Shown piece by piece: positions 4,870 to 64,000 of a stretch of 64,000 bases of DNA. Within the stretch, counting starts at the first letter, position 1. The number at the start of each line of letters is the position of its first letter. The DNA comes from Streptomyces lincolnensis (GTDB lineage: Bacteria; Actinomycetota; Actinomycetes; Streptomycetales; Streptomycetaceae). The stretch covers positions 1 through 64,000 of the forward strand of contig NZ_JAIHON010000009.1 of assembly GCF_021173675.1 (NCBI RefSeq). The letters are read 5' to 3'. The translations under genes and the position numbers were made by a program. The notes under the pieces were generated by a model that saw only the letters and a program-made list of their open reading frames with translations, was not told the DNA's origin and did no database searches.

Positions 4870-5955
4870 TCAGGCGGCCGTCTTCTTCGACTTCTCCAGG
4901 GCCGCCGCGAGGCTGTCGATCCGCGGTCCGTACCCGGCGTGGCTGAAGCGCTCCTCGTTGACCCAGGGGAAGATCTGCTTCGCCCGTACGGCGGGCAGGC
5001 GCGCCCAGGTCGGCTCGGCCTTCGCCAGGTCGGCGGGCTGGAGGGTGCCGGGGCGGTTGTCGACGAGGATCACATCGGCGTCGTAGGTGTCGACGTTCTC
5101 CCAGCTGAGCTGATGCCAGAAGCCGCCCTCGCTCAGCTTGGCGGGGGTGACGAAGTCGACGCCGAGGGACTTGTAGTAGCGCAGGTCCGTGAAGTCGTCC
5201 GGGTTGGCCACGTACATGAGGTCGGGCGCCGCGGAGATCGCCATGACCTTCAGGCGGCCGCTCGATCGCGTCGCCGCCCGCCGAAGGTGGGCCGAGGCCG
5301 TCTCGAAGATGGTCCTGTCGGCGGCCAGCTCGGCGGACTTCACGTCGGCGCCCAGGGACGCGGCGAGCTCGGTGAAGCGGTCGATCACCTCGGTCAGCGA
5401 GCTCTTCGTGGTGAGGATGCCGACGCTGGGGGCGAGTGACTCGATCTTCTTCGCCGACTCCTCGGGCACGTACCAGAGCGCCGGCGGGTCGGTCATCTGG
5501 GCGACCAGGAGGTCGGGGCGCAGCGCGGCATACCGCTCGACGTTGAACTGGGGATAGGTGTTGCCGAGGATGGTCACCTTGTTCACGTCGATGCCGCCGG
5601 CCCGGGGGTCGGGCTCGCCGTTCTCCAGCTTGGTGGGGCCGAAGACGCCGACGCACTCGATGCCGAAGTCGTGCAGGACGGCGGCGGCGCCGACGAAGGC
5701 GACGATGCGCTTGGGCGTGGAGTCTGTTCTGACCGTCGTACCGCGATCGTCCTTGAAGGTCCACGGTCCGCCGGACGTGGACGCTCCGGCTCGGCCGTCG
5801 GCGGGCTCGTCGTCCGAACCGCCGCACGCCGTCAGGAGGCCGCCGAGGCCGAGGGCGCCGACGGAGGTGAGGAGAGTGCGACGGCTGAGGGCGCGGTCGG
5901 TGAAAGTGCTGTGACCGGTGGAAAGGGAACGGGAAGCGGACAGGGGCGAGTTCAC
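4870..5955 (-). CDS. Ferric-siderophore ABC transporter substrate-binding lipoprotein
   Basis: 361 aa from GTG 5955, preceded by GGAGG at 5965-5969 (9-nt spacing); an upstream ATG at 5985 would sit closer to the iron box. The N-terminus carries a Tat-like SRRTLLT followed by a hydrophobic stretch and the lipobox LTAC, so the mature protein is probably a lipid-anchored Tat substrate. The rest matches FepB/FecB-type binding proteins (RIVAFVGAAAVLHDFGIECVGVFGP; RYAALRPDLLVA). It captures Fe3+-siderophore outside the cell. It is divergent from the FecCD permease genes, with an iron box between, which indicates shared iron repression. The siderophore is unknown. Confidence 0.92.
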   Translation of the reverse strand: MNSPLSASRSLSTGHSTFTDRALSRRTLLTSVGALGLGGLLTACGGSDDEPADGRAGASTSGGPWTFKDDRGTTVRTDSTPKRIVAFVGAAAVLHDFGIECVGVFGPTKLENGEPDPRAGGIDVNKVTILGNTYPQFNVERYAALRPDLLVAQMTDPPALWYVPEESAKKIESLAPSVGILTTKSSLTEVIDRFTELAASLGADVKSAELAADRTIFETASAHLRRAATRSSGRLKVMAISAAPDLMYVANPDDFTDLRYYKSLGVDFVTPAKLSEGGFWHQLSWENVDTYDADVILVDNRPGTLQPADLAKAEPTWARLPAVRAKQIFPWVNEERFSHAGYGPRIDSLAAALEKSKKTAA

Positions 5956-61191: not shown

Positions 61192-62415
61192 GTGTTCGGA
61201 ATGGTCAGACCCTGCTCGCACCGGCTGGGCCGGAGCCTGAAGGACCAGTGGATGGCGCATTTGTGCGGGCTGTGCCTCGCGCTGCGCACGGACCACGGGC
61301 AGTTCGCTCGGCTCGTGACGAACTATGACGGGCTGCTGATATCGGTTTTGACGGAGGCTCAGGCGGAGAAATCCGCCGGCGGACGTCGTACGGCGGGACC
61401 CTGCCCGTTGCGGGGAATGCGCACCGCCTCCGTCGCGCACGGCGAGGGGGCGCGGCTCGCGGCGGCCGTCTCGCTGGTGCTCGCCTCGGCCAAGGTGCGC
61501 GACCATGTCGCCGACGGGGACGGGCTGCTGGCCCGCAGGCCGGTGGCGGTCGCCGCCCGCCGGATCGCCACCAGCTGGGGGCGGGCAGGGGAGGCTTCCG
61601 GTCTCGGCGTCGGGTTCGACACCGCCGTCCTGGTCGACGCCGTGGACCGGCAGCTCGGCATCGAGACGCTCGCCGGGCCCGGAACGCCTCTGCTGACGGT
61701 CACCGAGCCGACCGAGACCGCGACCGCCGCGGCCTTCGCGCACACCGCGCTGCTGGCCGGGCGGCCGGGCAACGTCCAGCCGCTCGCTGAGGCCGGACGC
61801 CTCTTCGGGCGACTCGCGCACCTCCTGGACGCCGTGGAGGACCGGGAGGCCGACGCCGTGTCGGGTGCCTGGAACCCCCTCGCGGCGACCGGGACGTCCT
61901 TGGCGCAGGCCCGACGGCTCGCCGACGACGCCCTGCACGGGATCCGGCTCGCGCTGCGCGAGGTCGCGTTCACGGACGCGGGGCTCGCGCACCTGCTGCT
62001 CGTGCACGAGCTGCGGCGCTCGGTGGACCGGGCGTTCGGCACCGTGCCCGTGTGCGCCTCCCATCAGCACGGGCCGTCCGGGTCGTCCGGTCAGTCCGGC
62101 CCGCACGATCCGTACGGGCAGCGGTCGTCCGAGGGCGGGAATCCGTATGCCGGTGGGAACCCCTTCGCGGGCGGTGGGGGAGCGCCGGGCGATGGCGGGG
62201 GTGGAGGCTTCGGCGGGTTCGGGGGCGGGCCCGCGCCTCAGCCCCCGAGGGGGCGGCGCGGGTTCTGGGCCGGCTGCGGGATGTTCTGGCTGCTGTGCTG
62301 CACCTGCAAACTGTGCTGCGCCAAGGAGTACGAGGGCCCGTGGTCCCGCAAGAAGCGCGAGGGCGTCTGCCGTGACTGCGACGACGGGTGCGACTGCTGC
62401 TGCGACTGCTGTTAG
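61192..62415 (+). CDS. DUF5685 family protein with Gly-rich linker, TM helix and Cys-rich tail
   Basis: 407 aa from GTG 61192 (GGGGGA). The N-terminal ~280 residues are an all-helical DUF5685 domain starting FGMVRPCSHRLGRSLKDQWMAHLCGLCLALRTDHGQFARLVTNYDGLLISVL. CGLC plus the later TAGPCPLRG suggest a metal site, and AHLLDAVEDREADAVSGAWNPL is typical of the family. Residues ~285-350 are a Gly/Pro/Ser linker. RRGFWAGCGMFWLLCCTCKLCCAKEY may be a Cys-rich membrane segment, and the C-terminus CRDCDDGCDCCCDCC holds eight Cys in 15 residues. Function unknown. It is convergent with the ABC binding-protein gene. Confidence 0.88.
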   Translation: MFGMVRPCSHRLGRSLKDQWMAHLCGLCLALRTDHGQFARLVTNYDGLLISVLTEAQAEKSAGGRRTAGPCPLRGMRTASVAHGEGARLAAAVSLVLASAKVRDHVADGDGLLARRPVAVAARRIATSWGRAGEASGLGVGFDTAVLVDAVDRQLGIETLAGPGTPLLTVTEPTETATAAAFAHTALLAGRPGNVQPLAEAGRLFGRLAHLLDAVEDREADAVSGAWNPLAATGTSLAQARRLADDALHGIRLALREVAFTDAGLAHLLLVHELRRSVDRAFGTVPVCASHQHGPSGSSGQSGPHDPYGQRSSEGGNPYAGGNPFAGGGGAPGDGGGGGFGGFGGGPAPQPPRGRRGFWAGCGMFWLLCCTCKLCCAKEYEGPWSRKKREGVCRDCDDGCDCCCDCC

Positions 62416-62427
62416 GGCGGCCGGACG

Positions 62428-63381
62428 TCACTGGTCCTTCCGTTCCGGCAGTTCCGGCGGGGAGATCTCGGACTTGGTGAGGGCCGAGCCTGTCGTGTTC
62501 CACTTCTTCAGGATGTCGGCGTACGTGCCGTCCGCGATGAGTCTGTTCACGGCGGCCTGGAAGGCGGGGGCCAGCTTCGTGCCCTTCTTGAAGGCGAAGC
62601 CGACGTCGAGGCGGTGGAATTCGTTGAGGAACTTCAGGCCCTGCTGGTGGGCGACGGCGTAGCGCAGGCCGTTGATCGTGGACATCACGATGTCGCTGCG
62701 GCCCTGTTGGAGCGAGGACCAGATGGCGCTCTGCTCGCTGTAGGTCTGCACCTCGTAGGCCTTCTCGCCGGCGTCGGCGCACAGGTGCCTGTTCTTCTCC
62801 AGGGTGGCCTCGAAGGTGGTGCCCGCGCCGGTCGCCACCTTCAGGCCGCACAGCTGCTGGAGGTCGGTCACCGGGGAGAGCCTGCTGTCCCGGCGGGTGG
62901 CGAAGCCCTGGCCGTCGTTGATGTACGTGACGAAGTCGATCGCCCTGCGGCGCTCGTCGGTGACGCCGAAGTTGCCGACGCCGACGTCGTACTTGCCGCT
63001 GTCCAGGGCGGGCAGGATCGCCTCGAAGCTCGCCTGTTCCGTCCTGAGGCGGAGGCCGAGGACCTTGGCGACGGCGCGCGCGAAGTCGACGTCCTGGCCG
63101 GCCAGGGTCGTGCCGTCGTCCAGGATCGAGGTACCGGGCGGCTGGCCGGAGACGCTGACCGCGAGGGTGAGGGTTCTGGTGCCGGAGGGCAGCAGTCTCG
63201 CCGCCGCCCGGTCCTCCTTGACGGCGGAGACGACGTCCGTGGTGGGGATCGCCTCGGACCGCGCCGAGGCGTTGACGGCGTCGTCCGTGCCGGCACCGCA
63301 CCCGGTCAGCAGCAGAGTGCCCGCGGTGATGAGAGCGAAGGGGATGAAGAGGGCGTTTCGGGCACGCGTGGGCGTACGCAT
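62428..63381 (-). CDS. Polar amino-acid/cystine-type ABC substrate-binding lipoprotein
   Basis: 317 aa from ATG 63381. Signal ALFIPFALITAGTLLLTGC has lipobox LTGC. SBP_bac_3 fold: GTRTLTLAVSVSGQPPGTSILDDGTTLAGQDVDFARAVAKVLGLRLRTEQASFEAILPALDSGKYDVGVGNFGVTDERRRAIDFVTYINDGQGFAT, then AIWSSLQQGRSDIVMSTINGLRYAV. It binds a small amino acid outside the membrane. Upstream on the same strand are a leader peptide ending in Cys and a terminator-like hairpin, which point to a sulphur amino acid such as cystine. The divergent permease gene at 63805 is the probable partner. Confidence 0.92.
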   Translation of the reverse strand: MRTPTRARNALFIPFALITAGTLLLTGCGAGTDDAVNASARSEAIPTTDVVSAVKEDRAAARLLPSGTRTLTLAVSVSGQPPGTSILDDGTTLAGQDVDFARAVAKVLGLRLRTEQASFEAILPALDSGKYDVGVGNFGVTDERRRAIDFVTYINDGQGFATRRDSRLSPVTDLQQLCGLKVATGAGTTFEATLEKNRHLCADAGEKAYEVQTYSEQSAIWSSLQQGRSDIVMSTINGLRYAVAHQQGLKFLNEFHRLDVGFAFKKGTKLAPAFQAAVNRLIADGTYADILKKWNTTGSALTKSEISPPELPERKDQ

Positions 63382-63409
63382 GGCGTGGCGGTCTCCTGGG
63401 AGCGAGAAA

Positions 63410-63503: not shown

Positions 63504-63525
63504 GCGCCCTACGGAATCAGGGCGC
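63504..63525 (-). terminator. Attenuator hairpin upstream of the binding-protein gene
   Basis: GCGCCCT (63504-63510) and AGGGCGC (63519-63525) form a perfect 7-bp stem. On the minus strand the stem is followed by CTTTCG. It begins 14 nt after the leader-peptide stop (63540), the usual arrangement of a transcription attenuator. Confidence 0.6.
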
Positions 63526-63539
63526 GCAGCGGGGTCGGC

Positions 63540-63611
63540 TCAACAGGAGGAGGACCACACGCGACCGAAGTCGATGTGGGAGCGCTTGACCAGCCACTGC
63601 TGTGGATGCAT
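63540..63611 (-). CDS. Leader peptide, 23 aa, ending in Cys
   Basis: ATG 63611 to TGA 63540. The peptide begins MHPQQWLVK, continues RSHIDFGRVW and ends SSSC. The (R)xHIDxGRVxSxxC pattern resembles the short leader peptides of actinobacteria found before sulphur and cysteine genes, where ribosome progress over the terminal Cys codon senses cysteine. There is no Shine-Dalgarno sequence; a TTGACG-N17-TCCACT promoter ends 6 nt before the ATG, so translation is probably leaderless. It is far too short for ordinary gene finding; the call rests on motif and context. Confidence 0.7.
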   Translation of the reverse strand: MHPQQWLVKRSHIDFGRVWSSSC

Positions 63612-63617
63612 GGGCCA

Positions 63618-63646
63618 AGTGGAACAGGCATCCGGTGGTGCGTCAA
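63618..63646 (-). promoter_or_regulatory. Promoter of the leader peptide/binding-protein unit
   Basis: Minus strand TTGACG (63646-63641), 17-bp spacer, TCCACT (63623-63618). It predicts a transcription start at or next to the leader ATG (63611). The -10 is weak. Confidence 0.5.
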
Positions 63647-63713: not shown

Positions 63714-63804
63714 CGAAGGGCGGCCCTGCTGAGGGGCTCGGCCGCATCCGTGTGAAGGCACCCGTCCGAGTTCTTCTTCTGACTCGATGTCACGGAGCCC
63801 CCGC

Positions 63805-64000
63805 ATGTCCTCCGACACCCTCGCCAAAGCCTCCGCCGTACCGGATACACCGGAACACGCGGAGTCCCTGCGGATCGTCCCGCACCGCCGCCCCGGTCAG
63901 TGGGCGGCGGCCGTCGCCGTCCTGGCGCTCCTCGCTCTCGCCCTCACCTCCGTGCTGCGCAACGAGGCGTTCCAGTGGGACGTCGTCGCCGACTACTTCA
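63805..64000 (+). CDS. Amino-acid ABC transporter permease, N-terminal part (cut by window end)
   Basis: At least 65 residues from ATG 63805 (GGAG at 63794-63797; ATG 63787 in frame is an alternative). N-terminus SSDTLAKASAVPDTPEHAESLRIVPHRRPGQW is followed by the first TM helix AAAVAVLALLALALTSVLRNEAFQWDVVADYF, the usual start of HisM/GlnP-type permeases with a cytoplasmic extension. It is open at the right edge. It is divergent from the binding-protein gene and presumably encodes part of the same importer. Confidence 0.8.
   Translation, partial: MSSDTLAKASAVPDTPEHAESLRIVPHRRPGQWAAAVAVLALLALALTSVLRNEAFQWDVVADYF

Follow-up and report, generated by a model that had tools for sequence, protein, structure and literature searches.

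A short open reading frame upstream of an importer gene

What controls the gene for an importer substrate-binding protein that starts at position 63381 of the window (the whole 64,000-nucleotide stretch of Streptomyces lincolnensis DNA analysed here)? Upstream of it lies a short open reading frame (ORF) whose last sense codon encodes cysteine. The reading that we favour, with a rough probability of 0.65, is that a leaderless leader-peptide switch of the actinobacterial Cys type governs the importer, through a ribosome stall at UGU and exposure of the importer Shine-Dalgarno sequence. The genes and signals concerned are as follows.

61192-62415, plus strand: DUF5685 gene, convergent to the importer gene
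62428-63381, minus strand: gene for the importer substrate-binding lipoprotein, SBP_bac_3, 317 aa (Pfam PF00497, 92.6 bits)
63393-63398, minus strand: Shine-Dalgarno sequence CAGGAG of the importer gene (from sequence and folding)
63540-63611, minus strand: leader ORF, 23 sense codons MHPQQWLVKRSHIDFGRVWSSSC and a TGA stop (63542-63540), probably leaderless
63618-63623, minus strand: -10 element TCCACT of the leader promoter, ending 6 nt before the ATG at 63611
63641-63646, minus strand: -35 element TTGACG of the leader promoter (from sequence; TTGACN in 109/109 leaders)
63787-64000, plus strand: divergent amino-acid ABC permease gene, continuing beyond the window and read on in locus L124

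The earlier note on this DNA had described a 23-codon ORF, a hairpin 14 nt after its stop, the importer gene at 63381 and a TTGACG-N17-TCCACT promoter 6 nt from the ATG, and all of these are confirmed in the sequence. The promoter spacer in the window is 17 nt, and TGT stands in front of the -10 element, as in extended -10 promoters. The pattern TTGACN-17 nt-TCCACT-6 or 7 nt-ATG is kept in all 109 leaders collected below, with a spacer of 18 in one of them; the gap from TCCACT to the ATG is 6 nt in 93 leaders and 7 nt in 16. As this leaves no space for a Shine-Dalgarno sequence between promoter and ATG, leaderless initiation is the natural reading, and we conclude from the promoter spacing that translation of the leader ORF probably starts in this way. 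The -10 element is a poor one: according to the accessible text of PMC8079986, the usual -10 of S. lividans is TAnnnT, and 94.5% of leaderless cases have the A at position 2; TCCACT does not match this. A consensus scan of the window did not call the leader promoter as a sigma-70 promoter, TCCACT being without the usual A at position 2. A riboswitch and a stable small protein were weighed as alternatives; an Rfam search gave a single match at E<=1, which was under the gathering score and outside the leader.

The importer gene meets the convergent DUF5685 gene and is thus probably the sole gene of its transcript here. The DUF5685 protein has a C-terminal tail rich in Cys. The substrate-binding protein (SBP) passes PF00497 comfortably (92.6 bits against a gathering score of 26.4 bits), and it scores 89.1 bits with the cystine-binding model NF008426 (PRK11260), below the 312-bit cut-off. 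The Lys/Arg/Orn-binding model scores higher than the cystine model (101 versus 89 bits), all below cut-off, and the SBP sequence by itself does not single out cystine. The divergent run encodes, in order, the ABC permease, an FAD-NAD(P)-binding protein, a TcyN-like ABC ATPase and a luciferase-like monooxygenase. In NCBIfam, the permease is matched best by the cystine permease model (146 bits, cut-off 300) and the ATPase by that of the cystine ATPase TcyN (324 bits, cut-off 406); neither reaches its cut-off, and other amino-acid models score close behind.

The leader accompanies the importer

A search of genome contigs for the importer yielded 80 loci (79 Streptomyces, 1 Kitasatospora), and an intact leader lies upstream of the importer orthologue in 79 of them. 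It is also found in 29/29 further relatives, the best-ranked of 150 genomes of the genus that were searched, which probably include some strains already among the 80 loci. Together with the window these make 109 leaders, with 57 distinct coding sequences and 101 distinct 152-nt windows. A stop codon directly follows Cys23 in 106 leaders, and the remaining three read through further. We considered whether the leader might be a chance ORF, and this is ruled out by its conservation. At L104 (S. clavifer), about 200-300 bases upstream of position 5001, a 5-nt duplication puts the leader Cys out of frame; it may be a natural loss or a sequencing error.

Twenty extra regions were also drawn: seven precede 62-68% orthologues, 12 precede genes of a sister clade at 55-60% and the last precedes a second SBP gene; four of the 20 have a leader within 700 nt upstream. 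Wider stretches at 10 places (orthologues L181-L184 and sister clade L185-L190, with six sister-clade places and the second-SBP place omitted) contain the leader in 10/10, that of L187 having Tyr in place of the motif His as read by eye. By sequence likeness, an acetyltransferase-like gene stands between leader and SBP gene in L181, L182, L183 and L030, and for L182 this is confirmed by Pfam. The order in L185 is leader, alkanesulfonate-monooxygenase-like gene, GNAT acetyltransferase, SBP and permease; within the sister clade, monooxygenase and importer genes thus stand behind this same leader. Two sister-clade loci (L186 at 497, minus strand, and L187 at 8756, plus strand) have a second, ordinary family leader beside a presumed FAD-NAD(P)-binding gene.

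Relationship to actinobacterial Cys leader peptides

The window peptide has an R-x-H-[IV]-D-[LF]-x-R motif and a Cys 11 residues after the His. Neither it nor an SCSC variant of the importer leader matches the NCBIfam model NF042934 ('putative leader peptide', type cis_reg_atten, cut-off 27 bits), for the window peptide at E<=10. Its best match is NF042936 (Ms4527A Cys-rich leader), at 20.7 bits against a cut-off of 45, and the SCSC variant reaches 27.0 bits, also under the cut-off. A search of the window's genome with NF042936 gave 12 matches, all below cut-off; besides the window's own, seven of them are short ORFs with the motif, and each of these passes NF042934. A search of this genome with a strict DNA pattern yielded no leader, the pattern having excluded the window's own GGT codon. 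We built a home-made alignment (A1) from the eight leaders of the genome, with the window peptide as one row. Of 98 genomes of the class, 82 have an A1 match at E<=0.01; the window peptide, itself part of A1, scores 46.3 bits.

The seven other leaders precede genes for a nitrite/sulphite reductase; SfnG (dimethylsulfone monooxygenase); an SsuC/SsuA-type sulphonate importer; a MoaD-like protein with cysteine synthase; an NtaA/DmoA-type monooxygenase; a flavin reductase; and a protein with a GST C-terminal domain. Across the class, we compiled 31 ORFs downstream of leaders, hand-chosen from a longer list, at 25 loci (30 minus L148 and L156, where no leader was parsed, and minus L131-L133, which belong to the importer subfamily). 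Among them are 15 nitrite/sulphite reductases, four PAPS reductases, one APS kinase and four matches to Trans_reg_C, as well as single matches to SDF symporter, SBP_bac_5 and cupin models. The Trans_reg_C ORFs include those at L143 1827-2288, L144 619-1164 and L158 1655-2356, and their position suggests that regulator genes may be among the targets of Cys leaders. The SDF-family symporter follows a Cys leader at L154 (1631-3004); some symporters of this family carry cystine.

By sequence, the window leader is related to the actinobacterial Cys leader peptides described by NF042934 and NF042936 but diverges from them, and neither curated model accepts it. The resemblance to Cys and sulphur leader peptides proposed in the earlier note is thus well supported, by the shared motif and by the sulphur genes that other members head. 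Those genes also make it reasonable to suppose, as the note had, that cysteine supply controls the importer and that the substrate is a sulphur compound; the SBP sequence is not diagnostic of cystine. From context, we regard a sulphur compound (cystine, S-substituted cysteine or a similar organosulphur compound) as the likely, putative substrate. The indecisive SBP sequence would also suit a leader that senses another signal, such as redox state or translation stress, at the head of a general amino-acid importer. The family-wide link to sulphur assimilation and the monooxygenase neighbours speak against such a leader, and we judge it quite unlikely.

A near-fixed TGT codon at the cysteine position

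The candidate sensor of the favoured cysteine switch is the last codon of the leader.

63543-63545, minus strand: putative sensor codon Cys23, TGT, the final sense codon (TGT in 109/109 importer leaders)

A Cys stands 11 residues after the motif His in 7/8 leaders of the window's genome and in 111/112 sampled family leaders, 80 of the latter having been picked because their match extended to that place. Family-wide, the codon at this position is TGT in 110 of 111. The 32 leaders outside the importer subfamily all have the first Arg, the His, the Asp and the second Arg, each written with several codons, and residue 11 after the His is Cys in 31 (all TGT) and Gly in one. This Gly leader, at C5:305467 (L112) of the window's genome, has a Cys four residues earlier, and a second leader lies 1.2 kb downstream.

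Sixty further A1 matches, taken in rank order from those that extend to the end of the model (one close to a contig end was skipped), have TGT at the fixed place in 60/60; related genomes among them are not independent, and two (L199 and L202) belong to the sister importer subfamily. Another 20 from other genera or families have TGT in 19 and TGC in one, which comes from a 77% GC stretch. The other Cys codons of the same leaders are mostly TGC (26 versus 5 TGT in the set of 60, 15 versus 7 in the set of 20), and TGT makes up 12.8% of Cys codons in seven stretches of the host genome, so that TGC is the commoner codon. Selection of matches favours the motif and a Cys at the fixed place; it cannot favour the identity of the Cys codon. 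Both UGU and UGC are presumably read by a single tRNA-Cys with anticodon GCA. Near-fixed UGU at the Cys place holds across the family leaders sampled, a rule that we did not find in print within the literature searched.

The base directly 3' of the sensor TGT is never G (0/79 distinct family windows; C 52, T 17, A 10), and little else is fixed on that side. One guess is that this avoids an overlapping GTG start. In the importer subfamily, a second Cys occurs at codon 21 in 31/109 leaders. The window leader has one Cys codon, and a poly-Cys run near the stop, as in mycobacterial attenuators, is absent from it.

The peptide itself might also stall the ribosome. R-x-H-x-D-x-x-R would then pause it from within the exit tunnel, and cysteine would only tune the pause. 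Consistent with this, the Arg, His, Asp and Arg are invariant or almost so and keep a constant distance from the Cys, with codons that differ between leaders, a fixation of residues that codon-based attenuation alone would not need. The presence of the motif is, however, partly selected, as members were found with a motif model. The near-invariant Cys codon points instead to decoding, and one leader of the window's genome has Gly at the Cys place. On balance, we find arrest by the peptide somewhat unlikely.

A hairpin within the coding sequence

The codons of the motif are constrained at the RNA level in the importer subfamily.

63555-63579, minus strand: hairpin within the HIDFGRVW codons, 10 pairs, UUCG loop, one bulge at the wobble position of Arg17

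Codons 12-19 (CAC ATC GAC TTC GGT CGN GTG TGG) are invariant in the 109 leaders apart from the Arg17 codon (CGA 51, CGC 46, CGT 12) and three TTC/CTC (Phe/Leu) changes, with which the loop becomes CUCG. The Gly codon is GGT in 109/109, and GGT accounts for 10.9% of host Gly codons. Each of the six forms of the hairpin is more stable than 96.7-99.8% of synonymous recodings. Five sister-clade leaders keep the hairpin codons, adding CGG at the bulge. Among 87 other family leaders (7 from the window's genome and 80 others), six fall in the best 5% of recodings, with a median of 0.47, and single ones, such as L118, fold well at the same codons. The hairpin is therefore not beyond chance in the wider family, which indicates that the motif is general and the hairpin an addition of the importer subfamily.

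The nucleotide invariance of codons 12-19 outside the bulge, and a stability above that of recodings which other family leaders lack, would also suit a binding site for an RNA protein or a ligand, or a DNA operator, to which the ORF would be secondary. The peptide motif is nevertheless common to leaders without the hairpin, and the one-base bulge spoils a perfect DNA dyad. We consider a binding site of this kind improbable.

Possible readouts downstream of the putative sensor codon

How a stall at Cys23 would reach the importer gene was examined with three further features.

63504-63525, minus strand: terminator-like hairpin, 14 nt past the leader stop, 8-pair stem GCGCCCTG/TAGGGCGC with a 6-nt loop
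63531-63539, minus strand: post-stop element GCCGACCCC (GCYGA.. in relatives), with predicted pairing to leader codons 5-11
63544-63549, minus strand: CTCCTG at the leader end (codons 21-23), complementary to the importer Shine-Dalgarno sequence CAGGAG

In classical transcription attenuation, a stall at Cys23 would stop the hairpin at 63525-63504 from ending transcription ahead of the importer. Its stem includes one G-U pair and is followed by a weak CTTTC tail, and the consensus scan of the window found no U-rich terminator. The 50 nt after the stop hold an unusually good stem (p<=0.05) in 44/101 distinct windows, against 12/101 for a control stretch that covers 31-80 nt past the stop (20 nt overlap). 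In near relatives these stems lie at 13-17 nt after the stop and differ in sequence, and the sister clade has another GC-rich hairpin at a similar place, as judged by eye. Minimum-energy z-scores do not separate the two stretches (-1.03 versus -0.83); the stem-specific test does. A terminator-like stem kept at a fixed place in varied sequences speaks for attenuation; against it, 57/101 windows miss p<=0.05. Moreover, folding with the ribosome placed revealed no antiterminator, and terminator pairing in the window stayed at 0.97-0.98 at every position tried. Averaged over 41 loci, terminator pairing was 0.82 free, 0.78 with the ribosome at Cys23 and 0.69 with the ribosome at the stop. Attenuation of this type is, in our judgement, unlikely, and the hairpin as the switch, as put forward in the earlier note, does not hold up as stated: an antiterminator is lacking, the hairpin is not in all relatives, and masking of the Shine-Dalgarno sequence fits the window better. 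Some termination of transcription at the post-stop hairpin may come on top, in a way for which the stall model does not account.

In the favoured reading, the signal is instead read at the importer ribosome-binding site. CAGGAG pairs with the leader end and the post-stop stretch at a predicted 0.76 and does so also in the minimum-energy fold. The modelled accessibility of the Shine-Dalgarno sequence is 0.07 in the free RNA, 0.00-0.01 with the ribosome at codons 6-14 and 0.42 with the ribosome at Cys23. Values with the ribosome at codons 18, 21 and 24 are similar (0.36, 0.38 and 0.39), so release in the model does not depend on a stall at the Cys codon in particular, and we hold the favoured explanation less firmly for this reason. 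Across 88 folded loci, mean accessibility changes from free RNA to a ribosome at Cys23 as follows: 0.17 to 0.26, a small release, in group A, the window's (56 loci), 0.07 to 0.21 in group B (10) and 0.24 to 0.26 in the rest (22). No pairing of the Shine-Dalgarno sequence with the leader end was predicted for L004, L005, L007, L009, L012 and L013.

Comparisons among loci give a mixed picture of this pairing. The importer start was set by rule in 92/101 windows (78 unique), the rule preferring Shine-Dalgarno-like sites. Over these 78, duplexes between each tail and its own site are stronger than in 2000 permutations (p=0.0005), an excess that comes mainly from the group with an AAGGGC site (8 unique loci); in the window's group (47 loci), matched and mismatched duplexes are equal (-11.11 versus -11.16 kcal/mol). 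Codon 22 is TCC in 56/57 loci with a CAGGA site versus 26/35 without (Fisher p=0.0006, uncorrected for kinship). One clade (L017, L018, L080, L091, L093, L095, L098 and L101-L103) has no post-stop element of the window's type; there, TGATGCCCTTC, running from the leader stop, complements the clade's own Shine-Dalgarno sequence GAAGGGCA over 8-10 nt, with a variant in L093.

The GCYGA motif of the post-stop element occurs in 79/103 folded windows. An alignment fold of 39 windows, hand-picked from 70 for simple hairpins, gave 25 pairs, none with both sides changed, that is, no covariation. The predicted long stem that joins codons 5-11 to the post-stop element therefore draws on sequence invariance only, and it may represent a third state of the RNA. 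From the folding models we favour Shine-Dalgarno masking as the readout, with greater confidence in group B than in the window.

A model for control of the importer

Given these analyses, we propose the following course for the favoured switch. Transcription would begin at or beside the leader ATG, as the promoter spacing suggests, and a ribosome would start on the 5' end of the transcript. With ample Cys-tRNA, it would pass UGU and complete the leader at UGA; the leader end would then pair with the importer Shine-Dalgarno sequence, as folding predicts, and importer output would be low. When Cys-tRNA is scarce, the ribosome would wait on UGU and cover the leader end, the Shine-Dalgarno sequence would be freer, and the presumed sulphur-compound importer would be made. 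The sequences themselves show the ORF, the spacing of its promoter, its conservation, its kinship with the family, the sulphur genes nearby and constraint on both RNA and codons; translation of the leader, the stall, cysteine as the signal, the direction of control and the substrate are all predictions of the model.

More tentatively, and with rather more doubt than confidence, we suggest that several of these features belong together in a cysteine-sensing arrest leader of fixed geometry, shared regulon-wide among Actinobacteria. Its R-x-H-x-D-x-x-R nascent chain would hold the ribosome, and the UGU 11 residues after the His, decoded by G-U wobble, would make it hypersensitive to the supply of Cys-tRNA. 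The window's subfamily would have fused this peptide signal with an RNA hairpin in the same codons, and different clades would read one stall through either Shine-Dalgarno masking or a terminator-like hairpin.

If the cysteine switch is real, a regulon under cysteine control can be recognised throughout Actinobacteria by a single short motif, which also points to sulphur roles for importers and monooxygenases that lack annotation. The near-fixation of UGU against codon preference offers a test of whether codon identity, and not the amino acid alone, sets sensitivity. The differences between clades behind a near-unchanged leader, with a terminator-like hairpin in some and a Shine-Dalgarno complement in others, amount to a natural experiment in attenuator evolution.

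Comparison with known systems

The window peptide resembles the NF042934 leaders in having the same motif and the same Cys spacing. It differs from them in its Phe and Gly motif variants, in Trp19, at whose position a small residue is usual elsewhere, and in the hairpin in its coding sequence. With the mycobacterial leaders NF042936 (Ms4527A) and NF042933 (Ms5788A) it shares a short Cys-ending ORF upstream of a gene, the mycobacterial ones being leaderless and placed before sulphur genes. Unlike these, the window leader has a single Cys, precedes an importer gene and scores under the 45-bit cut-off. Gene regulation linked to sulphur metabolism is reportedly also the subject of Lyubetsky 2014.

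According to the accessible text of PMC4633059, a small ORF that ends in Cys and precedes cysA2 carries ribosomes in M. smegmatis. In their available parts, PMC9094748 and PMC13236596 both cite Canestrari 2020 for cysteine-responsive attenuation, and the latter also refers to attenuation at the level of translation for cysteine genes of M. smegmatis. Cys leaders before mycobacterial cys operons without clear terminators are reported in the accessible portion of PMC1262725 (Seliverstov 2005). As far as that portion goes, the importer leader is likewise an actinobacterial Cys leader of unclear mode with no antiterminator; it differs in lying at a Streptomyces importer locus and in a post-stop hairpin that is found in under half of its relatives. 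The reannotation of S. lividans contains eight leader peptides in the text available from PMC8079986, and the importer leader is absent from these. A literature search with peptide strings found nothing relevant to the importer leader among the 20 best-ranked of 1,356 papers.

Outside the Actinobacteria, uORFC-8-2, the attenuator of cysS in Rhodobacterales, has mostly UGC codons and a terminator with a U run, according to the accessible part of PMC8632094. It resembles the importer leader in placing Cys codons of an upstream ORF within structured RNA. UGC is dominant there, whereas the importer leaders have near-fixed UGU; as this cysS attenuator uses mainly UGC, UGU is no general need of Cys attenuators. 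The kind of leader studied here is thus known; the importer subfamily with its coding hairpin, the near-fixed UGU and the difference in readout between clades were not found in the literature searched.

At the level of gene content, a close parallel lies in the TcyJKLMN cystine importer loci of Bacillus and Listeria, which include acetyltransferase and monooxygenase genes. To our knowledge, no leader peptide of the importer-leader kind occurs at those loci. The relatives of the window's locus resemble them in bringing together an SBP, a permease, a TcyN-like ATPase, an acetyltransferase and a monooxygenase.
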